From: Asaia lannensis NBRC 102526
GTDB taxonomy: Bacteria; Pseudomonadota; Alphaproteobacteria; Acetobacterales; Acetobacteraceae
Reading direction: 5' to 3'
DNA: 64,000 bases
Assembly: GCF_024054035.1 (NCBI RefSeq)
Contig: NZ_JAMXQU010000001.1
Coordinates: 310,001 to 374,000, forward strand
The translations under genes were made by a program, and so were the position numbers. Positions 32,415 through 50,352 of the stretch are shown piece after piece. Position 1 is the first letter of the stretch, and each line of letters opens with the position of its first letter. Under the pieces are notes generated by a model. That model saw nothing but the letters and a program-made list of their open reading frames with translations, was not told the DNA's origin and searched no databases.

Positions 32415-32941
32415 GGGTGCCTCGGTCTGATTCGGTCGACAGGGTCGGGATGTTAGATTCGCAGGGTGAAATGATATGTATTAAACTCTGTTCATGATGC
32501 GTCTTTTACGAAACATGGCCAGTACCTGCTTTATCTTGATATGGAATTTCCAGAAACAACAAGTGGAATATAAATCAATATGATGGAAAATTTATATCAA
32601 ACGAATAAGTGTGATTAACTGTTTTATATATGTCTGGAAAACCGCAGTATGAGCGCTGTTAGATTATAAATAGAATACAGATTGATCGTCGATATAAACT
32701 CAAATTCTCGTTATCAGGTGTGGGGAATCCATGGATGGTTCCATAAAAGTTCTTATATGAACTCATTAATAAATGTTTATCGTACCAAGTTTGTCAGGAT
32801 AAACGTCTCATACGAACATATGGTCTGGTAACTATAACTCTTTTTTGTGATTTGCCGCAGGCGGTCAACCCGCGCAAAGGAGGAGGGCCAGGCACGCTGC
32901 ATGGCAGCAAGATGCCTTTTGTAAGACTCAGGAGAAACACA
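32415..32941. other. Long AT-rich regulatory gap between tkt and the permease
   Basis: The 527 bases are A+T-rich at 32480-32860 and contain no convincing gene. They hold divergent promoters. Structures seen are a near-palindrome GGAATCCATGGATGGTTCC at 32725-32743, with perfect core ATCCATGGAT, and AGTTC-TTATAT-GAACT at 32748-32763, both candidate operators. A GGAGGAGG-like purine run near 32879 does not serve a recognisable start; the permease has its own ribosome site later. Confidence 0.45.
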
Positions 32942-34352: not shown

Positions 34353-34710
34353 GGCCCGATTTTCCATAATCGCGACTTCCCGGAGCTCGTCTCTCATGCC
34401 GTTTGTCGCGCGTGATCGGGCGCAAGATCATGAATGCCACCGGTAATTAACAATTCGGTTTCGTTATAATCTGATTCGATACCCGCACCGACAGCGCTCC
34501 AAAAGGGCCAGATTCCTGCGTAAATAACTGATTCACAACAGTTTCATGAACGTAACCCGATAGGCGACACTGTGACATCGTTGCACAGTCGATTTCAAAG
34601 TATGTAATAAGAATGTAACCCGTCTTGCGAGTTTTATCGAAGTGCCGTTACGCATTGGGAACATTGTGACGATAGATGTCGCAGAATAACCCATTTTGAC
34701 GGAACACTTC
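34353..34710. other. Gap upstream of the large TonB receptor
   Basis: About 360 bases without a convincing gene, lower in GC than the flanks near 34440-34700. The string GTAACCCG occurs twice (near 34553 and 34615), which might mark a regulatory site. It should carry the promoter of the receptor gene; no sigma-ECF or Fur site could be named with confidence. Confidence 0.4.
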
Positions 34711-37700
34711 ATGACGCCCCTCAACAGAGAGACGACTGAGTCCGGTCGGCAGCACCGGATCATTGCCCCGTCAACCCGACGCAGGAAAAACCTCGCTCAT
34801 GGACTGATGAGCGCCACGGCCTGTATCGCCCTGTTGCATTTTGTCAGCGAAGCCAAGGCACAGACTGTATCAGCGCCGGAAACATCGACAATTCCGGTCA
34901 ATGCCGCCAAGGCACCTGCGCGCAGCAAGGTGAAGACAAACGCAGCCACGCGTTCGGTTCGTGCCAAGGCTGTTTCGGCGCCCGTGGCCAATACACCGGC
35001 TGCGGAAACATCCCGACCCGAGACCATCATGGTAACCGGCTCGCTGTTTCGCGATCCGAACACCACCAGTGCGTCGCCCATCACCCATATCACCATGAAG
35101 GACATGCAGCAGCGCGGCATCAAGACCGTGACCGATGCGCTGCAGCTTCTCTCGTCCAACGGCGCAGGCAATCTGACCAATGCCTGGTCGGCGGGCGGCG
35201 GCTTTGCCGCCGGTGCATCGGCGCCGTCGCTCCGTGGTCTCAGCACGGATTCGACGCTGGTCCTCATGGATGGCCAGCGTCTGTCCTACTATCCGCTGGC
35301 CGATGACGGCGAGCGCAACTTCGTCGACACCAACTGGATGCCGCAATCCATCATGCAGGGCGTGGACGTGCTGCAGGATGGCGGTTCGGCCACCTACGGT
35401 GCCGATGCCGTGGCCGGTGTGGTCAACATGATCACCCGCAAGGAAATCAAGGGTTTCGAGGGTAATGCCGAAGGTGGCCTGACACAGCGTGGCGATGCCG
35501 GACATCAGCGTCTTTATGCGACCTGGGGTCATGGCGACCTGCACAAGGACGGCTATAACTTCTACATCAACTCGGAATATCAGCAGGACGATCCTCTTTA
35601 TTACCGTCAGCTGAATGCGCCCTATAATAATGGCGATCTGACCGGTATCGGTGGTTCCAACGGAAACGATAATATCGTTTCGGGCGGCTCGATCACCAAT
35701 TTTGCGCCCTCGACCGTGGCTCTTGTCCGTCCCGTATCGGGCAGCGGGACGAATACCGCGCCATGGCAACTTCTGAATCAGCAGGCTGGTTGCCGTGACC
35801 TTGACGGTCTGGTTACAGGAGCTGTTGGTGGAAGCACCGGTACCAGCCAGGCCTGCTCATGGAACACGCAGAAATATGCCCAGCTTGCGCCCGATCTGCG
35901 TCGCATCAGTGCGACAGCGCATTTCACGGCCAATGTCACGGAGCGTTCGCAGCTGACGGCCATGTTCACCTGGTCGCAGGCGCGTTCGATCATCACCGGA
36001 ACGCCCTACTCAACCTATGGTGGTACGTCCTACAGCCAGGCAAAGCTGGCATCGGCGCAGAATACCTATCTGCCCGTCTATCTGGCTGACGGCTCGCTGA
36101 ACCCCAACAATCCTTATGCCGCACAGGGTCAGCAGGCTCAGGTCAATTACCGCTTTGGCGATCTGATTCCGACCACCATGGACACGAGCCAGAACTTTCG
36201 CGGTTCGGTGCGCTATAATGGCTGGCATCCCTCTCACTGGGGTTCCGACTGGAATTACGACGTCAATTTCGTTGGCATGAATACGCTGCTGAACCAGACG
36301 ATCACGGGTGTGCCGACCATCGCCGGAATCCAGAACGCGATTACCAGCGGCAGCTACAATTTCGTCGATCCGTCGCAGAATTCGCAATCGGTACTGAATT
36401 CCATCGCGCCGCGTAACGTCATCAATGCACGCACGCAGGAATATTCCGGTGAAGCCACGCTCAGCAAGGGACTGTTCCGCCTGCCTGGCGGCATGGCCAA
36501 GCTCGCCATCGGCGGCAACATCCGTTACGAAGCGCTGAACGATCCGAACGCCAACCCGCTCGACACGGCCAATCCGGCCAATCAGTATACCAGCTATATC
36601 AACCCGGTGAACGCACAGGGCAGCCGCTGGGTCGAATCTGCCTTCTTCCAGGCCGAGGCGCCGATCGTGAAGATGTTGAGCGCCGACGCCTCGGGCCGCT
36701 ACGACCATTATTCCGAAGGCTTCAGCCACTTCTCGCCGAAATTCGGCGTGCAGTTCAAGCCGACCGAAAAGCTGACCCTCCGCGGTACGTTCCAGAAGGG
36801 CTTCCGCGTTCCCAGCTTTGCGGAAACTGGCGGGTCGAATGTGGGCTACACCACCTACACCCCGAACAATGCCAATTTCGTCAGCCAGCATCTCAATGCC
36901 AACGGCACGCCCAACAACTACGCGCAGACCTATTATATTGGTTCGAACACCGCTGGTAATCCGAACCTGCGTCCGGAAACCTCGACCAATTTCTCGGGTG
37001 GTCCGATCTTCCGCCCGACCCGTTGGCTGACCCTGATGGCGGATTATTATTACATCCGCAAAAACCACTACATTGCGCCGAACCCCGTCGGTACCACCAA
37101 CGTGGCCAATGCCTATCTTGCGGGTGAAGCCCTGCCGACAGGTGTGACGGTTACGCCGGATATTGCCGACCCGCAGAACCCGAGCGGCCAGCTGCGTCCG
37201 GGCATCATCAATCTTGGCTACGTGAACACGAACAAGCTCGTGACGGATGGTTTCGATCTGTCTTTCGAGGCCAATACCCAGCTTCCCGGCGTATTTCGTG
37301 AAGTGCACTGGTACAGCAAAGGTACGGCGACTTTCGTGCGTCGCATGAACCTGACCAATCCTGATGGCTCGGTCTATCGCTATGCCGGAACGCTCGGCCC
37401 CTACGGTGCCGTTTCGGCATCGGGAACGCCGCGCTGGCGCGCCAACTGGTCCAATACACTGTCATGGCGCAAGCTGGCTGTGACGCCGACGGTCTATTAC
37501 ACCAGCGGCTATCGCACGACGGCAGAAGACCAGACAGGTTCGGGCACGGCGGGCAACTGCGCCGATGCCCTGACCTCCAGCAGTTTCGTCCCTCAGGGAC
37601 AGTGCAAGGTCAAAGGCTTCTGGGACGTCGATCTGACAGTGAACTATCAGTTCAATCGCCGCTGGAGCGCCTATGCCAACGTCTACAACCTGCTTGGTTT

Positions 37701-37812
37701 CAGATCGCCCTACGATTTCGGAACCTATGGCGGCTATCTCTACAACTCGTCCTGGACGCAGAACGGTGTCGTTCTTCGCTCCTTCCAGTTCGGTGTGAAG
37801 GTCGTTCTCTGA
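34711..37812 (+). CDS. Large TonB-dependent receptor
   Basis: A 1033-residue outer-membrane receptor. After a long signal region (AKAQ near residue 50) and an Ala/Thr/Pro-rich linker, the plug starts ETIMVTGSLFRDPNTTSAS and includes ITMKDMQQRGIKTVTDALQL, LRGLSTDSTLVLMDGQRL and VDVLQDGGSATYGADAVAGV. The barrel includes a TonB-box-like C-terminal pattern VYNLLGFRSPYDFGTYGG and ends SFQFGVKVVL. This is the oligosaccharide/peptide type common in Caulobacter and sphingomonads, not a classic siderophore receptor. The ATG at 34711 is preferred to an upstream TTG. It is monocistronic, with terminators before and after. The substrate is unknown. Confidence 0.92.
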   Translation: MTPLNRETTESGRQHRIIAPSTRRRKNLAHGLMSATACIALLHFVSEAKAQTVSAPETSTIPVNAAKAPARSKVKTNAATRSVRAKAVSAPVANTPAAETSRPETIMVTGSLFRDPNTTSASPITHITMKDMQQRGIKTVTDALQLLSSNGAGNLTNAWSAGGGFAAGASAPSLRGLSTDSTLVLMDGQRLSYYPLADDGERNFVDTNWMPQSIMQGVDVLQDGGSATYGADAVAGVVNMITRKEIKGFEGNAEGGLTQRGDAGHQRLYATWGHGDLHKDGYNFYINSEYQQDDPLYYRQLNAPYNNGDLTGIGGSNGNDNIVSGGSITNFAPSTVALVRPVSGSGTNTAPWQLLNQQAGCRDLDGLVTGAVGGSTGTSQACSWNTQKYAQLAPDLRRISATAHFTANVTERSQLTAMFTWSQARSIITGTPYSTYGGTSYSQAKLASAQNTYLPVYLADGSLNPNNPYAAQGQQAQVNYRFGDLIPTTMDTSQNFRGSVRYNGWHPSHWGSDWNYDVNFVGMNTLLNQTITGVPTIAGIQNAITSGSYNFVDPSQNSQSVLNSIAPRNVINARTQEYSGEATLSKGLFRLPGGMAKLAIGGNIRYEALNDPNANPLDTANPANQYTSYINPVNAQGSRWVESAFFQAEAPIVKMLSADASGRYDHYSEGFSHFSPKFGVQFKPTEKLTLRGTFQKGFRVPSFAETGGSNVGYTTYTPNNANFVSQHLNANGTPNNYAQTYYIGSNTAGNPNLRPETSTNFSGGPIFRPTRWLTLMADYYYIRKNHYIAPNPVGTTNVANAYLAGEALPTGVTVTPDIADPQNPSGQLRPGIINLGYVNTNKLVTDGFDLSFEANTQLPGVFREVHWYSKGTATFVRRMNLTNPDGSVYRYAGTLGPYGAVSASGTPRWRANWSNTLSWRKLAVTPTVYYTSGYRTTAEDQTGSGTAGNCADALTSSSFVPQGQCKVKGFWDVDLTVNYQFNRRWSAYANVYNLLGFRSPYDFGTYGGYLYNSSWTQNGVVLRSFQFGVKVVL

Positions 37813-37900: not shown

Positions 37901-38635
37901 TCAGTCGCGGTAATCGGGCTGCTCGCGGTCGAGCTTGCGACGCAGCGCTTTCCAGATCATCCGGCCCTGATCGGGATCCGTTTCGAACTGGGCGCGGGCA
38001 CGCAGTATTTCGGCTTCACTCGGGCAGTGCAGGGGAACACCTGCCGACTGGGCGGCAAGCTGCACGCGGCAGGCCTGTTCCAGATAATACATGCGATAGA
38101 AAGTCTGAGCGACAGTGCTGCCTATGGTCAGCAGGCCGTGATTTTGCAGGATCAGCCCCATATGATCGCCCAGATCGCGCACCAGACGCTCGCGCTCGCT
38201 CATATTGTCGTCTGCCGCGATCCCCTCATAGGGGTGAAAGCCAATACGGCCATAGAACTCCATATTGATCTGGTTGAGCGGTAAAATACCGCTTTCCTGT
38301 GCGGCAATGGCCATGCCGGCCAGCGTATGACTGTGCATGACACAGGCTGCATCGGGATGCGCACGATGCACGGCAGAGTGAATGACGAACCCTGCCGGGT
38401 TGACCGGCCAGCTCGTCTCCTGCTGGGGGTGGCCTTCTGAATCGACCACGACCAGCGAACTCGCCGTGATTTCCTCGAACAGCAACCCGTAGGGATTGAC
38501 CAGAAAGCGGTGCCCCTCTCCGGGCAGACGCACGGAGAGGTGGGTATAGACCATATCGGTCAGGTCGAACTGTGCATAAAGCCGATAGGCGGCGGCCAGG
38601 TCTTCACGCAGTTCCTGCTCTGTCTGCAGGGTCAT
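37901..38635 (-). CDS. Class II aldolase/adducin family protein
   Basis: A 244-residue zinc-dependent aldolase-like enzyme of the fuculose/ribulose-phosphate group: THLSVRLPGEGHRFLVNPYG near residues 30-50, HSAVHRAHPDAACVMHSHT with the HxH zinc ligands near 95, and ILQNHGLLTIG with the third histidine. Members act on sugar phosphates, sugar acids or related hydroxy-ketones; the exact substrate is not given by sequence. The ATG overlaps the stop of the Fe(II)/2OG oxygenase gene (ATGA), so it is the last gene of the TonB receptor / TIM barrel / oxygenase / aldolase transcript. Confidence 0.87.
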   Translation of the reverse strand: MTLQTEQELREDLAAAYRLYAQFDLTDMVYTHLSVRLPGEGHRFLVNPYGLLFEEITASSLVVVDSEGHPQQETSWPVNPAGFVIHSAVHRAHPDAACVMHSHTLAGMAIAAQESGILPLNQINMEFYGRIGFHPYEGIAADDNMSERERLVRDLGDHMGLILQNHGLLTIGSTVAQTFYRMYYLEQACRVQLAAQSAGVPLHCPSEAEILRARAQFETDPDQGRMIWKALRRKLDREQPDYRD

Positions 38636-39666
38636 GGGGTCACTCCGGTCTTGCTGAAATGGCCGAATGTATTGGTGCGGCGCGTGCCCTCCGGCAAGGT
38701 CAGTTCGCCACGCTCGCGTTTGGCGATGAGATAGGAATAGGTCTGCATGGCCTGTGCCCACATATGATCGCCGATCTTTACGGCTTCATAGGAACTGTCC
38801 CCTTTCTCGAAGGCGGGGAGAGGGCGGATTTCATGATGATAATCGCAGGCATAGAACAGCGGGAAGGAATAACGCTCCTCTTTCACGCTGCGCACGCGAT
38901 GAGCGGTCGCAACGAAAGCTCCAGCCGTCATCATTTCAAGCATATCGCCGATATTGACGACGAATGTGTCCGGCATGGGAGGCGCATCGATCCAGTCTCC
39001 GTTGCCGTTCAGAACTTCCAGACCCGGCTTGTCGGCGAGGAGAATGGTGAAGCATTCATAATCGGTGTGAGCGCCGATCCCTGGCGCATCATGCGCCTCG
39101 CCATCGAAAGGATAATGGATCATGCGCAGTTTCGAGGGGGGGAACTGTGCCACGTCGTCGAAGCTGTGTTCATCGAGACCGAGTGCGAGTGCGAAGCCGC
39201 GAAACAACACGCGTCCCAGTTCGAAAACGGCCTTGTAATAGGCGCTGGCCCGCTCGCGAAAAAGCGGAATTTCAGGCCAGTCATTGGGGCCGAGAAGCGG
39301 CGTGCCTGCCTTGACCAGAGGATTATCGGCGGGAACCTCGAAGCCGATATCGAAGGCCTCCTTATGGTCGGGGCGCGATTTGTTGTAGATCTCTTCTCCC
39401 TCGGGAACGAAGCCCTTATGCGAGGCTGAGGCGCCGATATAGCGCTTCATCTTCTCCTCAAGCGGCTGCGAGAAGAAGTCTTTCGCTGCCAGACGCAGAT
39501 CGGCGATGAGCTCGGGTGCGACACGATGCCCTGCGATATAGAAAAAACCGATCTTGCTGGCGGCGTGATGCAGAGCGTCAGCCACTTTCTGACGCTCGGT
39601 CTTGTCGGCCGAATACAGCCCGGCAATATCGATCACCGGAATGGACGTGAAAGTCTCTTCTGTCAT
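38632..39666 (-). CDS. Fe(II)/2-oxoglutarate oxygenase (isopenicillin-N-synthase-like)
   Basis: A 344-residue non-haem iron oxygenase. The N-terminal IPNS/DIOX_N part runs from IPVIDIAGL to GFFYIAGH; the core has the iron facial triad in IGAHTDYECFTILL (His, Asp) and ATAHRVRSV (His) near residues 210 and 270, and RYSFPLFYACDY supplies the Arg-x-Ser that binds 2-oxoglutarate. Plant and fungal relatives oxidise amino acid- and hormone-like compounds. It lies one base after the TIM-barrel gene and overlaps the aldolase, so it acts in the same pathway. Substrate unknown. Confidence 0.9.
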   Translation of the reverse strand: MTEETFTSIPVIDIAGLYSADKTERQKVADALHHAASKIGFFYIAGHRVAPELIADLRLAAKDFFSQPLEEKMKRYIGASASHKGFVPEGEEIYNKSRPDHKEAFDIGFEVPADNPLVKAGTPLLGPNDWPEIPLFRERASAYYKAVFELGRVLFRGFALALGLDEHSFDDVAQFPPSKLRMIHYPFDGEAHDAPGIGAHTDYECFTILLADKPGLEVLNGNGDWIDAPPMPDTFVVNIGDMLEMMTAGAFVATAHRVRSVKEERYSFPLFYACDYHHEIRPLPAFEKGDSSYEAVKIGDHMWAQAMQTYSYLIAKRERGELTLPEGTRRTNTFGHFSKTGVTP

Positions 39667-39667
39667 G

Positions 39668-40528
39668 TCAGGAATCTCCTTCTGGAGAGGAAGCGGAAAC
39701 AGTATCCGCAAAGGATCTGGCCTGATCCTGCCTGAGCCAGTCATTCATTTCCTGACGGTCGGCAAGCGGCAGATTGGTGAAGGGCACGGTATGGGTGTAG
39801 CCATCGGGACCGCATTCGGGTGTGAGTGTCGTGACATCGTAGCCCCGTGCGCGTTGCGAAACCCTGATCCGGCGCCAGAAATCGCGATGGAAATCGAGCG
39901 CCGCCCGATTTTCAGGTGCCGCCGGATGCGAGACCTGCGGTCCCTGATCGTAGCCCACGCGTGCCTGAACGTGATGCACGCGTTCGATGAAAGCACTGAA
40001 ATCGTCGCAGGGGTCGTTGAGCAGCCTTTCGCAGCCCACCACCCAATGGCTGATATCGGCAGTAAACAGCGCATCCGGCAATTGTGCCACAACGTCGAGC
40101 GTGACCCATGGCGTTGCACAAAGCCGGGCACGATGGGTCTCGAAACTGAGCGTGAGGCCGTGCTTTCGCCCCAGCGTCATGGCGCGACCGATAAACTCGA
40201 CCTGCTGGTTCACATCCCAGCGATCATTGCCGCCCAGCACATTGACAAAATGCGGTGCAAGCTGCGTTGCGTGCGACAACAGAGCGTCGAGATCAGCAAG
40301 ATGATCTGCGGTCGTGGCATCCTGTCGTGGGATAACGCCGCCGCCTGTCAGGGCGATTGCGATGAAGGGGCAATGACTGTCGCGCAGTGCCGCACCACAG
40401 GCGGGCAGGTCTGCAAGTGCAGGAATGCGCGCCTCGATCCCGTCATAGCCACGCCGATGGGCATCGGCGATGGCGTGGCGCCACGGGCGCGTATCGCCCC
40501 AGAGCGTGAGATAGGTTTCAAGGCGCAT
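39668..40528 (-). CDS. Sugar phosphate isomerase/epimerase family TIM-barrel protein
   Basis: A 286-residue protein of the xylose-isomerase-like TIM barrel (AP-endonuclease 2) family: GYDGIEARIP near residue 27, NVLGGNDRWDVNQQVEF, LSFETHRARLC with a probable metal Glu/His pair, TADISHWVVGC with Asp-x-x-His, and a Glu in TLTPECGPDGY. These give the usual divalent metal site. Many members isomerise keto-sugars or inososes; the particular reaction is not known. It is the second gene after the TonB receptor (21-base gap) and leads directly into the oxygenase gene. Confidence 0.84.
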   Translation of the reverse strand: MRLETYLTLWGDTRPWRHAIADAHRRGYDGIEARIPALADLPACGAALRDSHCPFIAIALTGGGVIPRQDATTADHLADLDALLSHATQLAPHFVNVLGGNDRWDVNQQVEFIGRAMTLGRKHGLTLSFETHRARLCATPWVTLDVVAQLPDALFTADISHWVVGCERLLNDPCDDFSAFIERVHHVQARVGYDQGPQVSHPAAPENRAALDFHRDFWRRIRVSQRARGYDVTTLTPECGPDGYTHTVPFTNLPLADRQEMNDWLRQDQARSFADTVSASSPEGDS

Positions 40529-40549
40529 CGGGAGCCTGCCTTTTACGCT

Positions 40550-42877
40550 TCAGAAATTGTAGCGCAGATCGCAGCCGATCCAGCGAGGCGTCTGGAGAAA
40601 CTGCACGCGTGAATTATCCGAGCCGGTAAAGGAATAGGTGTTGCCGTGCTTGTTGAGCATGTTGTCGACATAGACGGCAGCCGTCCATTTGCCGGTTTTG
40701 GGTCCGACTTCCATACGCATTCCGAACGAGCTGATCTTGCTGGTCACGCCATTGGGGTCGCCCAGTGCCACGAGCATGTTGTCTTTCCAAGTGTAGCTGG
40801 TCTGGAGTGACATGCGATAGGCATGAGGCAGGTCGATGCCATAACGGGCCACGGCATTCCATGAAAAGCGCGGGGCGAAAGGCAGCACCGAATGGGCTGT
40901 CACGGAAGAGAGCAGAGGCAGACCGCCGATATCGTTCACCGCATTGGTGGCCTGCGCATCGAGATAGGCAAAGGACCCGCGCAGATCGAGATTGGGGATC
41001 AGATCGTGCAGCGTGCTCGACAACTCGCCGCCACGCGTACGGGCACGGGGGATCGGCCCCAGGCTGAGCGAGGTGATGTTCATGGGCATCTCGGCCACGA
41101 ACAGTGTCTGGCGGTTGTGATACTCGTAATCGAACAGCGCACCCTCGATCTGCACATGGTTGTGCATCAGGCTGGTCTTGGCGCCGACTTCATAGGCAAT
41201 CATGTTTTCAGGGCGCACGTAATCGAGCGCCTGAGGAGCGGAAACAGGGGCCGCAAAATAGGCGCCCGCCTTGTAGCCGTTGGAAATGGTGGCATAGACC
41301 TGCGTGCCCGGCACGATGGTATAGCGCAGCCCCACGCGGCCGGTCAGGCGGGCGTAGGAATGGGTGGTGTCGAGGCGCGACAGATAGGCACCCTTGGTCG
41401 TCAGCGCGCCTGCATCGTCGATCGTCCCCCCATTGAAGCCGCGATCGTCCCAGGAGAAACGACCCGAGGCGATGAAATCGAGATTTCTGAGTATATTGGT
41501 GACGGTATTGAGATAGAGCCCGGTCGAGACATTCTGCTGCACGAAACGATCCGTCAGATTGCCATTGGGCACGCCAAGCAGAAAGGAGCGGTAGCTGGTA
41601 TAGGCCCCGTTGATCTTGTCCCAGGATTCATAGACGCCCACTGTCAGGTGAAAGCGCTTCGTCAGGTCCATTTTGAGATGCATGTCATGGGACTGGGCGA
41701 GTGAGGTGTCGTTCCAGTGGTAGTCGCCCACATTGATCGATTCACCATCGTAATTATCGTAATCGCTGCGACGGAACGCATCGAATGCCGTGGTCGAAAC
41801 GAACTGCCCCCAGTTGAAATCATGGGTGTAATTGATTGAGACGCCGCCGCCATTCTCGTCGCGGCCTACGCGGTTCGAGCCGACATTGACGGCGTTGTAC
41901 GAGGCGTTCGGTCCCACACCGACCGTGCCGGTCGGGAAGCCGTTGACCGCATCGCCATCCGTATCCTGCGGCGACATCGAGATGCCTTTGTCGCGCGTGT
42001 AGTGAATGTTCAGCAAAAGGTTCGAGCGGTCATCGATCAGGAAGCGCGTGAGATTGCGCAGGCCGAGCTGATCCTGAGAGCCGTAGCGCTTGTTGGTGTG
42101 AATATCGCGCTGCCAGCCATCGCCATTGATATAGGAAAACGCGGTGCGATTCTGGATGCGGTCGCTGATCGGCACATTGATGGCAGCGCTCGCCGTATTG
42201 GTGCCGTAGCTGCTATAGCCCCAGTCCACATAACCGCCGAACTTGCCATCGGGTTTGACCGTCTCGACCGCGATATTGCCACCGGTGGAGCTGCGTCCGT
42301 ACTCGAAGCCCTGCGGACCTTTCTCGACGGCAACCGACTGGGTGTCGAACATCTGCCCGGTATAGAACACGGGATAGGGGGCAAACACGCCATCTTGATA
42401 GATGCCGATCCCGCCCATGTTGTTGCCGGTATAATCATCGAGTCCGATGCCGCGTATCGAGAAAACCGGCGTGCTGCCCGAGGTGGCATTTACGGCAGTC
42501 AGGCCGGGCGTGTACGCCGCGACATCCTTGGGGCTGGTGATGTGCAGTTCCTGCAATTCGCGGCCACTCAGCACGTTGACCGTTGCTGCCGTGGTCAGAA
42601 AACGCTGCGCACGCGATCCGGTAACCTGAATAGCCTCGGGATCGGAATGAGGCGCTGCATGACGGCGCGAACGGGTCGTGCCGTGTTGCGTATGCGCTGT
42701 GCGCGAGGGGACGTGTCCGGCCATGGCCCGGGCGGATGGGTTTTGCTGTGCATCCGTATGCGCCACGGCTGCAAGGGCGGTCTTGTCCAGCGCAGAGCCA
42801 ACCAGCACGATTCCTGCGGAAAGCGACAGGGCGGTGCTGGTCAGGCGGCGAAATCCTTTGGGCAGGCGCGTCATCAT
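40550..42877 (-). CDS. TonB-dependent receptor in catabolic operon
   Basis: A 775-residue outer-membrane receptor that ends in Phe (RWIGCDLRYNF). Signal peptide ends near residue 35 (KTALAAV). Plug: EAIQVTGSRAQRFLTTAATV, SPKDVAAYTPGLTA, VFSIRGIGLDDYTGNN, VAVEKGPQGFEYGRSSTGGNI; the rest is barrel with ISNGYKAGAYF and RPENMIAYEVGAKTSL, patterns of receptors related to FecA-like and catechol/vanillate-type importers of sphingomonads. The ATG at 42877 has GGGAG nine bases before; open frame continues upstream without support. Its position between an ABC transporter and catabolic enzymes suggests it imports their substrate. Confidence 0.9.
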   Translation of the reverse strand: MMTRLPKGFRRLTSTALSLSAGIVLVGSALDKTALAAVAHTDAQQNPSARAMAGHVPSRTAHTQHGTTRSRRHAAPHSDPEAIQVTGSRAQRFLTTAATVNVLSGRELQELHITSPKDVAAYTPGLTAVNATSGSTPVFSIRGIGLDDYTGNNMGGIGIYQDGVFAPYPVFYTGQMFDTQSVAVEKGPQGFEYGRSSTGGNIAVETVKPDGKFGGYVDWGYSSYGTNTASAAINVPISDRIQNRTAFSYINGDGWQRDIHTNKRYGSQDQLGLRNLTRFLIDDRSNLLLNIHYTRDKGISMSPQDTDGDAVNGFPTGTVGVGPNASYNAVNVGSNRVGRDENGGGVSINYTHDFNWGQFVSTTAFDAFRRSDYDNYDGESINVGDYHWNDTSLAQSHDMHLKMDLTKRFHLTVGVYESWDKINGAYTSYRSFLLGVPNGNLTDRFVQQNVSTGLYLNTVTNILRNLDFIASGRFSWDDRGFNGGTIDDAGALTTKGAYLSRLDTTHSYARLTGRVGLRYTIVPGTQVYATISNGYKAGAYFAAPVSAPQALDYVRPENMIAYEVGAKTSLMHNHVQIEGALFDYEYHNRQTLFVAEMPMNITSLSLGPIPRARTRGGELSSTLHDLIPNLDLRGSFAYLDAQATNAVNDIGGLPLLSSVTAHSVLPFAPRFSWNAVARYGIDLPHAYRMSLQTSYTWKDNMLVALGDPNGVTSKISSFGMRMEVGPKTGKWTAAVYVDNMLNKHGNTYSFTGSDNSRVQFLQTPRWIGCDLRYNF

Positions 42878-42971
42878 GAAAAGGACTCCCGTCAGTGGCT
42901 TCCCTGTCATTGAAGAGGCGAAACGACCTGCTGTTCGATTGAAAAAAACCAAACCTCACTTTGTGCAATCG

Positions 42972-43742
42972 TTACCCATGATGAATCATCTGGTCGAGGA
43001 ACTGGCGGGCACGCTCTGTCTGCGGAGAAGTAAAGAATTCTTCCGGCGGGGCGATCTCGAGAATGACCCCCTTGTCCATGAAGATCACGCGATCGGCGAT
43101 ATGGCGTGCAAAGCCCATTTCATGCGTGACGCATATCGTGGTGATACTGCGCTCGGCCAGGGTGTTGATGATGCCGATCACGCCCTTGATGGCTTCGGGA
43201 TCGAGCGCCGCCGTGGGTTCATCGAACAGGATGATATCGGGCGCCATGCAAAGCGCGCGGGCAATCGCCACGCGTTGCTGCTGGCCGCCCGAGAGCTGAA
43301 TCGGGTATTTATCGGCCTGTTCCTCGATGCCCACCTGTTCGAGATAGGTGCGTGCCAGAGATTCCGTTGCTTCGCGACGGGCCTTGCGCACCAGACGCGG
43401 CGCAAGCGTGCAGTTGTCGAGCACGGTCAGATGCGGAAAGAGATTATAGTTCTGAAACACCATGCCAACTGCGCCACGAAGCAGAGGGAGGCTGGTCTTG
43501 TCATCGATCACATCGCCATCGATCATCAGAACACCGCTGTCATGCGGCTCTATTCTGTTGAGCGTGCGGATAAATGTCGACTTGCCTGAGCCCGAAGGGC
43601 CGAGAACGACGATTTTCTCGCCCTGCGCAATATCGAGGCTGATTCTGTCCAGCGCGAGAAACTCGCCGTAGAATTTACTGAGTTTGCGCAGGCTGAGGGC
43701 GGCATCGGGGTTGGGCGGCAGGTTATGCAGCATGAGGGGCAT
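42972..43742 (-). CDS. Polar amino acid-type ABC transporter ATPase
   Basis: A 256-residue ATPase of the GlnQ/HisP group: Walker A LGPSGSGKST near residue 48, Q-loop VFQNYNLFPHLTVLDN, signature LSGGQQQRVAIARAL, Walker B IILFDEPTAALDPE and H-loop VTHEMGFAR. The group transports polar amino acids, opines and similar cations. Its start lies inside the end of the fused binding-protein/permease gene (20-base overlap), so the two form one importer. It is followed after 94 bases by the TonB receptor gene. Confidence 0.93.
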   Translation of the reverse strand: MPLMLHNLPPNPDAALSLRKLSKFYGEFLALDRISLDIAQGEKIVVLGPSGSGKSTFIRTLNRIEPHDSGVLMIDGDVIDDKTSLPLLRGAVGMVFQNYNLFPHLTVLDNCTLAPRLVRKARREATESLARTYLEQVGIEEQADKYPIQLSGGQQQRVAIARALCMAPDIILFDEPTAALDPEAIKGVIGIINTLAERSITTICVTHEMGFARHIADRVIFMDKGVILEIAPPEEFFTSPQTERARQFLDQMIHHG

Positions 43743-45312
43743 TTCCTGTGTCCGTGGATGTCATGGAAGACGTGTCTTGGCGTGAGCCGGGTCTGCGTCC
43801 GGCACCGGTGCGGCTTGCCCAGACAAACCGTGTCTCGATCCGCTTCTGCAGATGCAGAAAGGCGAACACCATCGCGAGATAATAGACGAGGGCCGCAGCG
43901 TAATATTCGGTGAATTCGAAGCTGCGTGCCACCTGCACCTGCGTGATGAACAACAGCTCCTGCAACGAGATGACCGAAGCCAGCGAGGTCGTCTTGAGCA
44001 GGGAGATGAATTCGTTGATCGTGGGTGGCAGGGCCACACGCAGGGCCTGCGGGAAAATCACATGGCGATAGATCTGCGCCTGACTCATGCCAAGCGCCTG
44101 GCCACCTGCAAGCTGCCCCGGATCGATAGCGCTCAGGGCGGCGCGGTTGATCTCGACCTGATAGGCCGATTCATTGATGGACAGGCAGATCCATGTGGCC
44201 AGAAAGGGTGAAAACCAGCTCTCGCGAAACACCGGAAAAAACTGCGGCAGGGCGTTCCAGATAAACAGAAGCTGCAACAGCGTGGGCGCCCCGCGAAACA
44301 CAGCCACATAAGCGCGCAGGAAAGGATGCCAGAGCGAGCGCGGCGCATTGAGCTTGAGCGCGATGGGAATGGAAATCACAATGGCCGCAGCATGAGATGC
44401 CAGTGCAATCGCCAGTGTCATGGCTGCCCCCTTGAGGAAGGCCATGGAAAACAGGGCAGAGAAAAATGTTGCTGTGTTAAAGCGCGGTCGCTCGGCATGA
44501 ACGCCAAGGGCGACCTGTGCGGCTTTGCCGACATTCCACGTCTTTTCCAGCGAGGCAATGGTACCCTGTTGTCTGAGTGCCTCTATGGCACGGGCCAGAA
44601 GGGCGCGATCCTGTCCCGCGCGGCGAAGATAGACCGCGAACTCGGTGTAACCGGGCATGGATGGGGTAAAAATGACGTGCAGTTTGCCACCAAGCTGGGC
44701 CTGACGATAAAACAGCTCGACATCCTGACTCAGAAAATTCTGCGACCGTCCGACCAGAACCTGCTGAACCACCTGATCTTCACTGGGATATTGCTGCAAA
44801 ACGATGGGCGGTTTGCCGTGGGCGACGAGTGCCCGGTTGATATCCTCGATGCGCGCGGCATAGCTTGTGCCGGATTCGACTGCGAGACTTTGACCGGCCA
44901 GGGCGTCGAAACTTGTGACGGGGGCAATCTGGCTTGGGGCCACCACAACGGGTGACGTTTCCAGATAGGGAACGGCGTCGAAAAGACGCTCCCGTGATGC
45001 CTGTTTGAGCACGCCGCTGATGACCAGACTGCAACGCCCTGCGGCAAGGCTGGGGAACAGCCCCGTAAAATCCATGGTCTTGAACGTGACCGGCACGTTC
45101 CAGTAAGCGCCGAGTGCCTTGGCCAGAGCGATATCGAAACCGTCGAGCGCCGAGAGATCGGACCCGTTGACGAAGGTCATGGGCGGAAGGGTCGGGTTGG
45201 TGCAGACACTCAGCGTGCCGTCTTCCAGAAAGGAAGGTTTTTCCTGCGCATGGAGGGGGGCGGTCGACGCGAAAACAGAGAGTGTCAGGAAAAGTGCGAG
45301 CAGGAACCGCAT
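43723..45312 (-). CDS. Fused periplasmic binding protein and ABC permease
   Basis: A 529-residue two-domain protein. A signal peptide (cleaved after PLHAQ, near residue 23) precedes a family 3 solute-binding domain to about 270: LSVCTNPTLPPMTFVN, DGFDIALAKALG, CSLVISGVLKQASRERLFD and AVESGTSYA. From about 290 to 505 is a HisM/GlnP-type permease with five helices and the EAA loop GQALGMSQAQIYRHVIFPQA. So the binder is tethered to the membrane channel. The ATG at 45312 overlaps the LysR stop and has GAAGAG at suitable distance; another ATG six bases upstream is possible. Substrate: polar amino acid or guanidino/opine-type compound by family only. Confidence 0.9.
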   Translation of the reverse strand: MRFLLALFLTLSVFASTAPLHAQEKPSFLEDGTLSVCTNPTLPPMTFVNGSDLSALDGFDIALAKALGAYWNVPVTFKTMDFTGLFPSLAAGRCSLVISGVLKQASRERLFDAVPYLETSPVVVAPSQIAPVTSFDALAGQSLAVESGTSYAARIEDINRALVAHGKPPIVLQQYPSEDQVVQQVLVGRSQNFLSQDVELFYRQAQLGGKLHVIFTPSMPGYTEFAVYLRRAGQDRALLARAIEALRQQGTIASLEKTWNVGKAAQVALGVHAERPRFNTATFFSALFSMAFLKGAAMTLAIALASHAAAIVISIPIALKLNAPRSLWHPFLRAYVAVFRGAPTLLQLLFIWNALPQFFPVFRESWFSPFLATWICLSINESAYQVEINRAALSAIDPGQLAGGQALGMSQAQIYRHVIFPQALRVALPPTINEFISLLKTTSLASVISLQELLFITQVQVARSFEFTEYYAAALVYYLAMVFAFLHLQKRIETRFVWASRTGAGRRPGSRQDTSSMTSTDTGNAPHAA

Positions 45313-46295
45313 CAGCATGTCTCTTCGAGAATGGAGCGGAATGTTTCGGCCATGAGACCGTTTTCCGGCGTGGGACGTATCAGGAAATAGAAATGATTGA
45401 TCAGATGCAGGTCATTGAACTGTATATGGCGCAGGCGATCGTGCTGCACCATCTGGGTGACGAACAGCTCGGGCAGAAAGCCGATATACATGCCTGACAG
45501 AATGAGCAGGGCGCGTGAGTCGATATTCTCGGCTTTGGCCGCAAAATTCATGGACGGGCGCAGTTCGTCCCAGCGTGGCGACGAGGCGGCATCGCTGACG
45601 CTGATCATCCGCGCCTGTGACAGGGCAGGAATATCGATGGCCTCTTCCGGCACGTTGAAAAGGGGGTGACGCGCGCCGCAATAGAGATTGGACCGCTCGC
45701 TGAACAAGGCGGTCGCCTCCATTTCCGGCTGCTGATGGGGATAAAGCGTTATCCCTGCGGTCGCCGTGCCATTGCGCACGGCAAACTCGACATCGCGCGT
45801 CGAGGCAGAACGCACATCCATTTCGACAGCCGGATAGCGTGTGGTGAAGATCTGTATGGCACGCAAAAGGGCCGTCTCGCCATGGAACTGGATATTATCA
45901 GGCAGATACAGGCAGAACCGCCCCGATAACGTGCCGCTTACGTCATTGATCCGCTGCTGGAACAGATCGAGGTCGTTAAAAAGCCGGGCCGTTGCATCGA
46001 GCACGCCTTCACCTTCGCGCGTCAGGGCAAACCCTGCACGCCCGCGATGGCACAGCACCATGCTCAGACGGTTTTCGAGTGCTGCGATATCGATGCTGAT
46101 CGAGGATTTGCTTTTGCCCAGCGCCAGTTCGGCAGCGGCAAAGCCCCCATGCTGTGCGACGCAGGCAAAGACACGCAACAGGCGCAGATCGACTTCTGCA
46201 ATACGACCCTGAAACCCGCTGGCACGAGGGAGGCGTCTGGGCTGGTTTTGCGTGCGGACACGGGACAAGGGCATGAATCCTGTTTCAGACAGCAT
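45312..46295 (-). CDS. LysR-type transcriptional regulator
   Basis: A 327-residue regulator. The helix-turn-helix lies near residues 35-90: LRLLRVFACVAQHGGFAAAE, then SKSSISIDIAALENRL, a typical LysR HTH. The remaining part is the effector-binding domain. About 30 residues precede the HTH, longer than usual; a GGGGAG before the ATG at 46295 supports this start, while ATG at 46274 is possible. It overlaps the transporter gene, so it is co-transcribed with the genes it likely controls, and diverges from the dimethylargininase-like gene. A perfect CTCAA-N11-TTGAG repeat sits in the intergenic region. Confidence 0.9.
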   Translation of the reverse strand: MLSETGFMPLSRVRTQNQPRRLPRASGFQGRIAEVDLRLLRVFACVAQHGGFAAAELALGKSKSSISIDIAALENRLSMVLCHRGRAGFALTREGEGVLDATARLFNDLDLFQQRINDVSGTLSGRFCLYLPDNIQFHGETALLRAIQIFTTRYPAVEMDVRSASTRDVEFAVRNGTATAGITLYPHQQPEMEATALFSERSNLYCGARHPLFNVPEEAIDIPALSQARMISVSDAASSPRWDELRPSMNFAAKAENIDSRALLILSGMYIGFLPELFVTQMVQHDRLRHIQFNDLHLINHFYFLIRPTPENGLMAETFRSILEETC

Positions 46296-46423
46296 GCGAT
46301 GATATCTCCCCTGTCGATGCAATCAACCTGCCGTTTTGCAGGCGTTGCCCTGCAATGGCTGCGGCAAGAGGCGAGTATGGGGGCGATCGGGCCCGATTAT
46401 AATTTATGAAACGCCAAACCAAA

Positions 46424-46444
46424 CTCAAGCTCATTATGATTGAG
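46424..46444. promoter_or_regulatory. Probable LysR operator (CTCAA-N11-TTGAG)
   Basis: Perfect inverted repeat with 5-bp arms and an 11-base spacer, the T-N11-A layout of LysR boxes. It lies 128 bases from the LysR start and 79 bases before the dimethylargininase-like ATG, between the two divergent genes. Confidence 0.55.
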
Positions 46445-46473
46445 CAATGGCTGGACTGCTCCTAGCGTTTCTC

Positions 46474-46493
46474 CACCCGGTGACCGCCGGGTG
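46474..46493 (+). promoter_or_regulatory. Leader hairpin before the dimethylargininase-like gene
   Basis: CACCCGG, six-base loop, CCGGGTG. It lies 31 bases before the ATG at 46524 and would fold in the 5' untranslated RNA; it may be an operator or stability element. Confidence 0.35.
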
Positions 46494-46523
46494 ATTCATG
46501 CCGTTTCAGAGGGAAGGCCGATC

Positions 46524-47390
46524 ATGACAGCCAATCGCTGGTTTATCGATAGCGAAACCGGAACGCTGACAGATGTGCTGTTGTGCCCTCCCGATTTCTA
46601 CACCTGGAATCCGAGCAACGATATCGCCATACGCACCCTTGCAAGCGGGGCGCGTCCCGACCCGCTCAGGCTGAAACAGCAGTTCGACGGGCTGGTTTCT
46701 GTTCTTCAGGAGGCAGGCGTGCATTGCCATTTCCTGACCCCTTCAGAAGGGCAGCCCTATCAGGTCTATACCCGCGATTCCTCGCAGACCACGCCCTGGG
46801 GTACAGTGGTCACCAGGCTGATGCGCGCCGAACGCCAGCCGGAAATCCAGGGGATCGAGGCATTTTACGGCGAGGACGAAATCATCGGCCGGTGCACGGA
46901 AGGCTATGTGGAGGGCGGGGATATCCATATCATCCGTCCTGGGCTGGTTGTTGTGGGAGTAAGTGGTGGCCGAACCGATAGAGAAGGGGCGCAGGCTTTC
47001 CTGCGGCCTTTCGAGGCGGCGGGATGGACCTGCCGCATGATCCATTTCCCCGAGCATTTCCTGCATCTCGATGTGATCTTCACCATGGTGTCCGACGGTC
47101 TCGCGATCGGCGTGGTCGATGTGCTCGAGGATGACGATCTGGCATGGTTCGAGGCGCAGGGCATCCGTATTCTGCCCGTGACCTATAAAGAGGCGATGCG
47201 CGATATGGCGTGCAATGTGCTGGCTCTGGGCGAGGGGCGTGTGGTCAGCCCGCGTCATTCGTATCGCGTCAATGCCATGCTGCGCGATCACGGTCTTACC
47301 GTGTTCGAGCCCGAGCTCGACCAGTTTTCGCAGGGCGGCGGCAGTATTCACTGCATGACCATGCCGCTCAGACGTGCCAGTCTGGCTTGA
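46524..47390 (+). CDS. Dimethylargininase/amidinotransferase-like hydrolase
   Basis: A 288-residue guanidino-modifying enzyme of the DDAH/arginine deiminase superfamily. VYTRDSSQTTPWGTVV near residue 80 has the substrate-binding Asp, EGYVEGGDIHII the conserved Glu/Gly-Asp, HLDVIFTMV the catalytic His, and GGGSIHCMTMPLRR at the end the nucleophilic Cys. These hydrolyse or transfer amidino groups from arginine-like compounds. GGGAAGG precedes the ATG. It is divergent from LysR and transporter genes and 36 bases before a hydroxyacid dehydrogenase on the same strand. It supports a guanidino-containing substrate, though homologues with other activities exist. Confidence 0.83.
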   Translation: MTANRWFIDSETGTLTDVLLCPPDFYTWNPSNDIAIRTLASGARPDPLRLKQQFDGLVSVLQEAGVHCHFLTPSEGQPYQVYTRDSSQTTPWGTVVTRLMRAERQPEIQGIEAFYGEDEIIGRCTEGYVEGGDIHIIRPGLVVVGVSGGRTDREGAQAFLRPFEAAGWTCRMIHFPEHFLHLDVIFTMVSDGLAIGVVDVLEDDDLAWFEAQGIRILPVTYKEAMRDMACNVLALGEGRVVSPRHSYRVNAMLRDHGLTVFEPELDQFSQGGGSIHCMTMPLRRASLA

Positions 47391-47426
47391 GGTCCTGCTC
47401 TTGCAGGGCAGGCAGAAGAACGGGAG

Positions 47427-48386
47427 ATGACAAATATGGCGCCGCGTCTGGTGATCAGTGCCGATGGGCCGGAGGCCTTTGCCGGCTGGCGGGACTCATT
47501 TGCGGCCCATGCTCCCGATATCGAGATCCTGTCCTGGTTCGACCCTGACACCGCGCATGGGCAGGCCGATTATGCCCTTGTGTGGGAGGCCGATGATGAA
47601 GATCTGCGCCGCATGGGACATCTGCGTGGCATTCTCTGCACGGGCGCAGGGGTCAATCATCTGGTCAAAAGCCCCGATTTTCCCCGGCAGGTGAAGCTTG
47701 CTCGTATGGGTGGAGGCGATACGGCGGCGCTCATGGCCGATTATGTGCTCTGGGCCTGTATCGCCCTGCTGCGCGATGCACGCACGTGGGCCCTGCAACA
47801 GGCAGGTCATATATGGGCGCGCAATCTCGTGTCGCGCACGAGTGCCGAAACGGGCGTGACCGTGCTGGGCTATGGACAGATCGGTGCTGTCGTGGCGCAA
47901 AAACTGGCTCAGGCCGGGTTCAGCGTGTCGGCATGGCGTCGTTCCGCAGGCGCGACATCCGATGGAGCCGTCACGCTACATCATGGCGAAAAAGGGCTTC
48001 ATGACGCACTCGGCACAGCCGATCTGCTGGTCAATCTTCTGCCGAGCACCCCACAGACGCGTCATATCCTTGATAGAGCGACGCTTTCGCGGCTTCGACG
48101 CGGGGCGGGGCTTATCAATGTCGGCCGTGGCGACCATCTGGTAGAGGCGGATCTTCTGGCCCTGCTCGAAAACGGCCATCTTTGCGGAGCCGTGCTCGAC
48201 GTCGTGTCGCAGGAGCCCCTGTCTGCGGATTCCCCCTTATGGGATCATCCCGCCATTACGCTCACGCCTCATATCGCTTCGGAGGCGTCGCGCGAGGCAC
48301 AGGTGCGCTATATTGCCGAGACGATACGCCAGATGGAGCGCGGCGAGACGCCCGCCCTGCTATTCGATCACGCACGCGGATACTGA
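47427..48386 (+). CDS. D-2-hydroxyacid dehydrogenase, GhrA-like
   Basis: A 319-residue NAD(P)H-dependent dehydrogenase of the glyoxylate/hydroxypyruvate reductase A type: VLGYGQIGAVVAQKLAQAGF cofactor loop near residue 147, NLLPSTPQTRHIL, GAGLINVGRGDHL with the catalytic Arg, LDVVSQEPLSADSPLWDHP with Glu, and TPHIAS with the catalytic His. It would reduce a 2-oxoacid (glyoxylate, hydroxypyruvate or similar). It is in tandem with the dimethylargininase-like gene, so it probably handles a 2-oxoacid from the same pathway. A second ATG three codons downstream is possible. Confidence 0.87.
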   Translation: MTNMAPRLVISADGPEAFAGWRDSFAAHAPDIEILSWFDPDTAHGQADYALVWEADDEDLRRMGHLRGILCTGAGVNHLVKSPDFPRQVKLARMGGGDTAALMADYVLWACIALLRDARTWALQQAGHIWARNLVSRTSAETGVTVLGYGQIGAVVAQKLAQAGFSVSAWRRSAGATSDGAVTLHHGEKGLHDALGTADLLVNLLPSTPQTRHILDRATLSRLRRGAGLINVGRGDHLVEADLLALLENGHLCGAVLDVVSQEPLSADSPLWDHPAITLTPHIASEASREAQVRYIAETIRQMERGETPALLFDHARGY

Positions 48387-49300: not shown

Positions 49301-50206
49301 TCAGCCGCGTCGCTCTGCAATCGCAGCGGCCAGCGTGGAGACAAGCACCATAGAGGCCGCGTTCGAACGAAAGCCCTGAAAATCGGCTTCATGCACTTCT
49401 AGCCACAGGCCGGATTGCGGAATGACGGGGCTGCCTGCGCTATCCGTCATGGAAATGACCGGCACCTGCCGGGCTTCGAGCGCATTGAACAGCTCGATCG
49501 TGCGCGGCGCATAAGCGGTATAGCTGAGTACGAGCGCAGCATCCTGCGGCCCGGCGTGCAGAAAGCTCTCTTCCTCCATACCGGTCTCAAGCCCGATAAT
49601 CTGATGTCTGATATCCAGCTTCGCCAGAAGATAGGACAGATAGCGTATGACAGGCATCGACCGGCGCAGCCCGAGCAGATAGAGGCAGTCGGCCTGCGCC
49701 AGTGTCGTAACCGCCGCTTCGAGCCGGTCAGGTAAAAGATGCGCTTGCAGGGCATGTAGCGAGTCGAGCGCTGCTTCGTAAAAACCGTTGAAAATGACAG
49801 AAGCCTCGAGCGGCTCGCCATCCACGCGATGCAGGGCATTTACCCTGTCGCGATAGGTGACATTGCGCACGCGCAAGCGGTCGCGGAACACGGCCTGCAT
49901 GTCCGAGAAACCGGCAAAACCCAGCGTGCGCGCAAAGCGGACCACGGTTGAAGGCTGCACACCGGCCTGACCTGCAAGAGAGCTCACCGTGCCCAGAGCG
50001 ACTTCGTCAGGTGAGGCTGAAACGAAGTCGGCGAGCTGAACCAGTCGCTTGGGCAGATCGGCATAGCAATGGCGCAAACGCTGATGGAACGCATCGAAGT
50101 CGGATTGAGGGGGCGAAACGTCTTCGGAAATCTCGGTCAAGGCTGCGTCATCCGGAATGGGAATGAATATTCCATAACAGGGCCGTGGAGCATCGCGAAG
50201 GGCCAC
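49301..50206 (-). CDS. RpiR-type repressor of inositol catabolism (IolR-like)
   Basis: A 301-residue regulator with an N-terminal RpiR helix-turn-helix (LVQLADFVSASPDEVALGTV, then AGVQPSTVVRFARTLGFAGF) and a C-terminal SIS sugar-phosphate-binding domain (DCLYLLGLRRSMPVIRYL, ALVLSYTAYAPRTIELF). In rhizobia an RpiR protein represses iol genes, and this gene is divergent from iolC, so IolR is the best reading. The start is unclear: GTG at 50206 has a weak ribosome site, and a TTG at 50140 would place the putative operator at 50160-50173 in the leader instead of inside the gene. Confidence 0.86.
   Translation of the reverse strand: MALRDAPRPCYGIFIPIPDDAALTEISEDVSPPQSDFDAFHQRLRHCYADLPKRLVQLADFVSASPDEVALGTVSSLAGQAGVQPSTVVRFARTLGFAGFSDMQAVFRDRLRVRNVTYRDRVNALHRVDGEPLEASVIFNGFYEAALDSLHALQAHLLPDRLEAAVTTLAQADCLYLLGLRRSMPVIRYLSYLLAKLDIRHQIIGLETGMEEESFLHAGPQDAALVLSYTAYAPRTIELFNALEARQVPVISMTDSAGSPVIPQSGLWLEVHEADFQGFRSNAASMVLVSTLAAAIAERRG
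50160..50173. promoter_or_regulatory. GGAA-N6-TTCC site near the IolR start
   Basis: GGAATGAATATTCC. It matches the GGAA-N6-TTCC palindrome I recall for IolR of Sinorhizobium meliloti. It overlaps the first codons of the repressor gene if the GTG start is right. Confidence 0.5.
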
Positions 50207-50271: not shown

Positions 50272-50316
50272 GGAATGTACGTTCTATCGCGTGACCAAGA
50301 ACAGAATGTATGTTCT
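50272..50316. promoter_or_regulatory. Tandem IolR-like operators before iolC
   Basis: GGAATGTACGTTCT at 50272-50285 and AGAATGTATGTTCT at 50303-50316: two near-identical 14-base near-palindromes, starts 31 bases apart (about three helical turns), 37 bases before the iolC ATG. Both keep the GAA-N6-TTC core, so a repressor dimer pair could bind on one face and block iolC. Confidence 0.6.
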
Positions 50317-50352
50317 TATCATGCGCAACGTAACATGCTGCAGGAGTCGGGG

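Follow-up and report, generated by a model that had tools for sequence, protein, structure and literature searches.

We analysed a window of 64,000 nucleotides from Asaia lannensis NBRC 102526 (contig NZ_JAMXQU010000001.1, positions 310,001 to 374,000) and focused on a block of nine genes at positions 37901 to 48386 of this window, which, judging from sequence, probably enables the cell to import and degrade a guanidino compound. The cluster is more widely conserved than the window alone could show, and the genes for a TIM-barrel metalloenzyme and an Fe(II)/2-oxoglutarate (2OG) oxygenase are its constant core. Sequence and comparison between genomes establish which genes belong to the set, how far it is conserved, that the TIM gene is coupled to an oxygenase gene, and the guanidino link; within the reach of our literature search, no description of this variant of guanidino-compound catabolism was found. 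The features of the block are as follows.

37901..38635, minus strand: class II aldolase/adducin-fold enzyme, PRK07044 subfamily (PF00596, E = 3e-47; PRK07044, 332 bits, cut-off 207)
38632..39666, minus strand: Fe(II)/2OG oxygenase (Pfam DIOX_N, E = 1.1e-29; 2OG-FeII, E = 2.1e-22)
39668..40528, minus strand: TIM-barrel metalloenzyme of the epimerase/isomerase kind (AP_endonuc_2, 31.0 bits, E = 2.6e-7)
40550..42877, minus strand: TonB-dependent receptor (Pfam), whose gene is less conserved than any other in the block
42972..43742, minus strand: amino-acid-type ATP-binding cassette (ABC) ATPase (Pfam, NCBIfam)
43723..45318, minus strand: fused solute-binding protein/permease of the polar-amino-acid type (SBP_bac_3 and BPD_transp_1)
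45312..~46295, minus strand: LysR regulator (start uncertain, possibly 46322)
46323..46523, no strand: divergent intergenic region with presumed LysR-controlled promoters (from the sequence)
46524..47390, plus strand: guanidino-modifying hydrolase of the ADI/DDAH superfamily (PF02274, E = 3e-26)
47427..48386, plus strand: GhrA-like D-2-hydroxyacid dehydrogenase (Pfam, NCBIfam)

All nine genes named in an earlier note on this DNA were recovered in their places and order from open reading frames, Pfam, NCBIfam and the sequence. The junctions were likewise as described for the ATGA between the oxygenase and aldolase genes, the 20-base overlap of the transporter fusion with the ATPase, and the gaps of 94 bases (ATPase to receptor) and 21 bases (receptor to TIM gene); the TIM and oxygenase genes, thought to overlap, are 1 base apart with the starts chosen here.

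Conservation of the cluster within the Acetobacteraceae

The nine genes are colinear in four further Asaia genomes (L058, L059, L060 and L062), so the block is not a chance arrangement, and the TIM gene is 73-81% identical to its copies in named Asaia species. Among 150 genomes sampled from the order, 24 have a strong TIM orthologue, including the window's own genome, which leaves 23 Acetobacteraceae TIM loci (two weak matches, with 30 and 27% identity, were excluded). At each locus 16-20 kb were read, and gene presence was called by scripted bit-score limits, at which divergent homologues can be missed. The oxygenase and an ATPase match (distant in L167) were detected in all 23 loci, the aldolase in 21, the receptor (at least 100 bits) in 20, the DDAH-like hydrolase and LysR in 19 each, and the GhrA-like dehydrogenase in 18.

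Rearranged and with losses, the block occurs in five genera, Asaia, Komagataeibacter, Acetobacter, Gluconacetobacter and Kozakia. The Gluconacetobacter loci are without LysR and GhrA matches and the three Komagataeibacter loci without GhrA matches; L077, L096 and L097 have no DDAH-like gene and keep the remainder of the block, and L167 has TIM and oxygenase only. Independent scattering of the genes in relatives, the outcome that the earlier note had set against its own idea, was for the most part not seen at these frequencies of oxygenase, aldolase and DDAH-like genes, and some relatives keep parts only. Across the order sample, a DDAH-like gene of at least 66% identity is present in 20 of the 24 TIM genomes versus 10 of the 126 others, and five of those ten (L078-L081, L087) have the importer ATPase and the aldolase.

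In Kozakia baliensis a plasmid (pKB14400_3, L174) carries the cluster, flanked on one side by transposase genes in the stretch read, and Asaia platycodi (L100) has a seemingly broken copy in which DDAH, oxygenase and other matches are in pieces. A role of the TonB receptor in heme or siderophore uptake was rejected, the receptor models scoring far below cut-off.

Versions of the cluster in other bacterial classes

A phylum sample of 398 genomes contained 28 with a match to the TIM gene, comprising the window's own genome, 8 strong matches, which were read, and 19 weak ones (E of 2.6e-14 or worse), which were left out. All 22 places (21 genomes) were read in family f44, which we infer to be Pseudomonadaceae, and all 7 in family f65. 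The resulting 55 TIM loci are thus the 23 of Acetobacteraceae, 22 of f44, 7 of f65 and 3 of other families (L137-L139), two of the 55 being from one genome (G648). Genomes with species names were covered by a single pattern scan, sensitive only to close relatives, and species-named loci overlapping sample genomes (e.g. A. bogorensis GD-01 and the Kozakia plasmid) were kept out of the 55.

Beyond the Acetobacteraceae, the block was found in Acinetobacter, Pluralibacter, Klebsiella and families f65 and f44. This supports a recurrent uptake-plus-enzyme unit within and beyond the Acetobacteraceae. The scan of species-named genomes placed the TIM gene in Acinetobacter baylyi, A. ihumii and Pluralibacter gergoviae, and the Acinetobacter and Pluralibacter clusters contain LysR, TIM, oxygenase, binding protein, a permease-ATPase fusion, aldolase, hydroxyacid dehydrogenase and an agmatinase-family hydrolase. 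In Pluralibacter and the seven f65 TIM loci the operon reads LysR / guanidinobutyrase-TIM-oxygenase-binding protein-[permease-ATPase]-aldolase-GhrA, and the two Acinetobacter have the same functions in another gene order. The accessible portion of PMC5320631 contains nothing on this operon. The aldolase subfamily (PRK07044) is common to the Asaia, A. baylyi and Pluralibacter clusters, and the importer fusions differ, joining binding protein and permease in Acetobacteraceae and permease and ATPase in Acinetobacter and Pluralibacter. TIM is present in 7 of the 48 f65 genomes, each with the whole operon and the guanidinobutyrase gene first. The f44 core consists of TIM, oxygenase and importer.

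From the sequence, the A. baylyi cluster, read in the type strain, may adjoin an arginine succinyltransferase run (astADBE), which is not so in A. ihumii; a gene for an HD-domain protein weakly like phosphonate HD oxygenases (L110:6961-7521) also adjoins the A. baylyi cluster. In Klebsiella pneumoniae the full set lies next to oqxAB on the 5.37-Mb record CP125156.1 (L176), labelled a plasmid and, judging by its size, probably a chromosome, and a 61-kb Klebsiella plasmid record (NZ_MN823990.1, L177) has a copy of the operon with frames that are seemingly broken or poorly sequenced. The sole f65 genome with guanidinobutyrase and no TIM (G684, L173:9250-10194) has a LysR neighbour related to the operon regulator, as if the rest of the operon had been lost or never gained.

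More divergent TIM relatives have other partners. In L137 and L145 these are an oxygenase and a binding protein of the 'urea' (uca) type, and in L138, L139, L142, L146, L147 and L148 the TIM relative stands beside a desaturase-type oxygenase, with an NMT1-type ABC importer in five of these six loci (all except L142). The desaturase-type partner in L138 matches the arginine hydroxylase GntB weakly (31 bits, cut-off 380), a lead at most, and these loci represent a possible sister pathway.

The TIM-barrel enzyme and its oxygenase partner

The 55 TIM loci contain a 2OG oxygenase gene in 48 cases, a desaturase-type oxygenase gene in 6 and an oxygenase remnant in 1 (L169). This coupling points to the oxygenated product as the substrate of the TIM enzyme. 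No curated NCBIfam model matched either protein of the pair, and the AP_endonuc_2 score of the TIM protein was marginally under the Pfam cut-off of 31.1. Its predicted structure is a barrel (mean predicted local distance difference test score, pLDDT, 81.8), and the nearest structures in the PDB are D-tagatose, D-psicose and L-ribulose 3-epimerases (best E = 1.6e-11), with 1k77 (E. coli EC1530), which we take to be OtnI/YgbM, at rank 35. All 71 aligned sequences, a set in which some genomes occur twice, share E130, D158, H186 and E238, presumably the residues that bind the metal. The fold and this four-residue site place the protein among the metal-dependent TIM-barrel isomerases/epimerases (AP_endonuc_2). 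One TIM copy is seemingly broken, with one TGA inside the match (G635:C13:165517-166377).

The best PDB relatives of the oxygenase are a reconstructed ancestor (9ovh, 229 bits) and then PaIPNS (6jyv, 186 bits). Entries named ethylene-forming enzyme (EFE), except 9ovh, score low (9eir, 84.9 bits; 5v2t, 78.9 bits), and assignment as an EFE was rejected, the best characterised entry being 9eir. PaIPNS (PA4191) is a Pseudomonas aeruginosa protein whose function is left unassigned, with ethylene formation only in traces, in the portion of PMC12329707 that was accessible.

Guanidino hydrolases and the guanidino link

The hydrolase of the Asaia block belongs to the ADI/DDAH superfamily of guanidino-modifying enzymes, with its Cys, His and acidic residues kept; C276, H180, D84 and E129, which we take to be catalytic, are invariant in 10 of 10 aligned sequences. 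The description of this protein as a dimethylargininase-like hydrolase holds at the superfamily level and no further. Its scores against the dimethylargininase NCBIfam models (60.6, 46.6 and 46.2 bits) are far below the cut-offs (340, 300 and 450), so 'DDAH-like' is used here as a superfamily label only, and a true dimethylargininase was rejected on this wide margin. An arginine dihydrolase was also rejected: the best PDB matches are the cyanobacterial Alr4995/Sll1336, the double hydrolysis of arginine dihydrolase needs an Asn, and the aligned residue here is Asp. In 8 of the 23 Acetobacteraceae loci the stretch read includes a gene of the M20 carbamoylase type (the family was tested on L065), and the window's own genome encodes M20 carbamoylase homologues, two at 59% and one at 30%.

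In other classes the DDAH-like gene is replaced by a non-homologous guanidinobutyrase of the agmatinase family. The Pluralibacter hydrolase scores 548 bits to the guanidinobutyrase 3nio versus 317 bits to 3-guanidinopropionase in the PDB. Guanidinobutyrase was found in 13 of 35 TIM loci of other classes, and none was found among the window's nine genes or in the 23 Acetobacteraceae TIM loci. A pathway that depends on guanidino hydrolysis would require TIM carriers without a local hydrolase to encode one elsewhere, and this prediction was tested in the two families. Among the 148 f44 genomes, guanidinobutyrase is encoded in all 17 that carry a close TIM gene versus 54 of 131 others (p about 1e-6, shared ancestry ignored), and in f65 in 7 of 7 TIM genomes versus 1 of 41 others (p about 1e-7, shared ancestry likewise ignored). 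It was found in none of the four f44 genomes whose sole TIM gene is divergent.

A further context was found in Paraburkholderia sprentiae, in which TIM and oxygenase genes directly precede those for UAAP1, UAAP2, urea carboxylase and AtzF. According to the accessible text of PMC12508155, guanidine is the substrate of carboxylases from loci of this kind. Two Guanidine-I riboswitches and one Guanidine-II riboswitch were detected at this locus with Rfam, and no guanidine riboswitch in the 21 other stretches of the 22 scanned. None of the three lies between the P. sprentiae TIM gene and the same-strand start of its upstream neighbour, so the pair need not be riboswitch-controlled. The divergent intergenic region of the Asaia block (46323..46523) had no Rfam match at E up to 1.

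In general, guanidino chemistry accompanies the TIM-oxygenase pair in several unrelated ways, namely the hydrolase swap, the co-occurrence and the carboxylase and riboswitch context. Guanidino hydrolysis thus appears to belong to the unit, as the earlier note had suggested, and by sequence comparison the guanidino part of its idea is well supported.

Proposed pathway and alternative explanations

We infer the following substrate, order of steps, hemiaminal splitting, and roles of the aldolase and the GhrA-like enzyme. LysR would regulate the cluster for a substituted guanidino acid, which would enter through the TonB receptor and then the fused binding-protein/permease with its ATPase. The 2OG oxygenase would hydroxylate the compound, and the metal-dependent TIM enzyme would process the product. 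In a version by oxidative N-dealkylation, which we offer tentatively, the carbon next to the nitrogen would be hydroxylated to a hemiaminal, which the TIM enzyme would cleave; the products would be a small oxo acid and a free guanidino acid, either 4-guanidinobutyrate or something closely analogous. In Asaia the deiminase-type protein would then probably form a ureido acid, to be finished by an M20 carbamoylase encoded elsewhere, and in other classes guanidinobutyrase would yield gamma-aminobutyrate and urea. The GhrA-like reductase and the class II aldolase would handle the released fragment. The precedent for N-dealkylation is MgdH/MgdL of Vreelandella boliviensis, described in the accessible portion of PMC12508155 as a 2OG oxygenase and a lyase that demethylate methylguanidine, MgdL splitting N-(hydroxymethyl)guanidine.

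Several observations weigh against this pathway, either as a whole or in its parts. Guanidinobutyrase is common even in TIM-less f44 genomes (the 54 of 131 above), its specificity is assigned by similarity, and G671, counted among the 17 f44 genomes, retains no more than a remnant of the oxygenase (L169, a short match). The 22 f44 loci have guanidinobutyrase nearby in 3, aldolase in 7 and GhrA in none. No guanidine riboswitch was found in the scanned stretch of the window. The fit of the TIM model to PDB structures is moderate (template modelling score about 0.55-0.67), and sugar epimerases, not lyases, are nearest. MgdL is modelled as a beta-barrel lyase in the accessible text of PMC12508155, so the TIM enzyme, compared with it by description only, could at most be an analogue. 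Within the Acetobacteraceae, 4 of the 23 TIM loci are without the DDAH-like gene; of the ten TIM-less genomes with a close one, two have a GhrA-like match only and three have nothing else. More distant DDAH-like genes (45-51%) number 25, and none of the 8 that were read has other block genes at the orthologue level. Matches to the TonB receptor were confined to Acetobacteraceae, with none in the 35 TIM loci of other classes, and its role as an essential part gained no support, nor did a single linear order of steps. The separation of parts in some relatives also speaks against one fixed pathway.

The first alternative, itself a variant of the broad guanidino assignment and in our judgement rather doubtful, is an acid-sugar-type shortening of a hydroxylated guanidino acid, in which dehydrogenase, isomerase and class II aldolase-fold decarboxylase would act in sequence and the guanidino group would be removed at either end. 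The TIM fold points this way, with ketose epimerases nearest and 1k77 among its matches, as do the 2-hydroxyacid chemistry of GhrA and a weak match of the aldolase to an OtnC-type decarboxylase model (32.9 bits, cut-off 250), but the block has no kinase gene, and many f44 loci consist of TIM, oxygenase and importer without aldolase or GhrA nearby. Because of these same f44 loci we prefer N-dealkylation as the more economical version, on evidence that is not decisive.

Release of free guanidine, also a variant of the broad assignment, seems unlikely. Here the oxygenase would hydroxylate the guanidino-bearing carbon, as EFE does on arginine and the plant homoarginine-6-hydroxylases do, and the TIM enzyme would free guanidine. 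The hydrolase partner in the main branch is a guanidinobutyrase or a deiminase-type protein, from which activity on free guanidine is not expected, and the guanidine riboswitches are confined to Paraburkholderia among the stretches scanned. The Paraburkholderia pair itself, within a urea/guanidine-carboxylase locus with such riboswitches, and the EFE/PaIPNS neighbourhood of the oxygenase are in its favour. Guanidine-forming 2OG enzymes are published (PMC11018352, seen in extract), but for PaIPNS no detectable pyrroline-5-carboxylate from arginine is reported in the accessible portion of PMC12329707.

That an amino-acid importer with TonB receptor, an oxygenase-TIM unit and a DDAH-like hydrolase are separate systems merely adjacent is likewise improbable, for although the five relatives with importer, aldolase and DDAH-like genes but no oxygenase or TIM, the TIM-less genomes with DDAH-like alone or with GhrA only, and the four TIM loci without it would fit, the seven complete operons of f65 do not, nor does the finding that in one class after another the genes lie together, even with an unrelated hydrolase whose activity is of the same class.

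Returning to N-dealkylation, a broader conjecture, which we regard as something of a long shot, is that oxygenase and TIM enzyme form a new and widespread two-enzyme device that oxidatively removes substituents from guanidino nitrogen. The TIM enzyme would be a dedicated hemiaminal lyase unrelated to MgdL, the downstream enzymes would vary (deiminase-type, guanidinobutyrase, guanidine carboxylase), and a desaturase-type oxygenase would stand in for the 2OG enzyme in one branch. If true, this would imply a common class of N-substituted guanidino metabolites in nature.

Neighbouring genes

Upstream of the block are a second, larger TonB receptor (34696-37812) and a major facilitator superfamily transporter (32852-34285), 91-95% and 97-99% identical, respectively, in L058, L059, L060 and L062. 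By comparison, the receptor within the cluster is much less conserved in Asaia (59-69%). On the other side are a gene for a 667-residue fusion protein, in which a carbohydrate-kinase-like part is joined to a second catabolic part (50275-52278), and an RpiR-type regulator beside it (49301-50206). By our reading of the sequence, the genes directly downstream may be an inositol cluster of the iolC-iolJ type; these neighbours stay next to the block in Asaia and had no match close to it in the other genera examined, and a link with them was set aside.

Comparison with known systems

The earlier note knew of no described pathway with this gene set, and no description was found among the top-ranked results of our literature search. 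Its further suggestions of a complete pathway and of a plant or opine-like substrate gained no support from comparison. Nopaline and octopine operons have a polar-amino-acid ABC importer and a LysR regulator, as does the Asaia block; a classical opine operon was rejected, as the nine genes searched include neither an opine oxidase nor an arginase or an ornithine cyclodeaminase. The Otn pathway for threonate and erythronate combines a dehydrogenase, the TIM-barrel isomerase OtnI and the class II aldolase-fold OtnC, so that a TIM-barrel isomerase-type protein, a class II aldolase-fold protein and a hydroxyacid dehydrogenase are shared. The block differs in its oxygenase and guanidino hydrolase, and with no four-carbon acid-sugar kinase among its nine genes (open reading frames, Pfam, NCBIfam) it is not an Otn pathway. 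With the GbuA route of arginine catabolism in P. aeruginosa, the versions in other classes share a guanidinobutyrase-like gene; to our knowledge, the oxygenase, TIM enzyme, aldolase and such an importer are not part of that route.

The likeness to MgdH/MgdL, as far as the accessible text of PMC12508155 describes them, lies in a 2OG oxygenase, a second enzyme and an ABC importer for a guanidino compound, and in a carboxylase locus similar to the one that hosts the Paraburkholderia TIM-oxygenase pair. In contrast to the Asaia block, the Mgd genes are under riboswitch rather than LysR control, and that text names no deiminase, guanidinobutyrase, aldolase or GhrA for them. The non-homologous hydrolase swap leads to a narrow list of candidate substrates, and A. 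baylyi offers a version of the cluster that is easily accessible to genetics. The oxygenase is of the same family as PaIPNS and EFE. The cluster ties an orphan oxygenase family near EFE, including PaIPNS, and an unassigned TIM-barrel family to guanidino metabolism in several bacterial classes.

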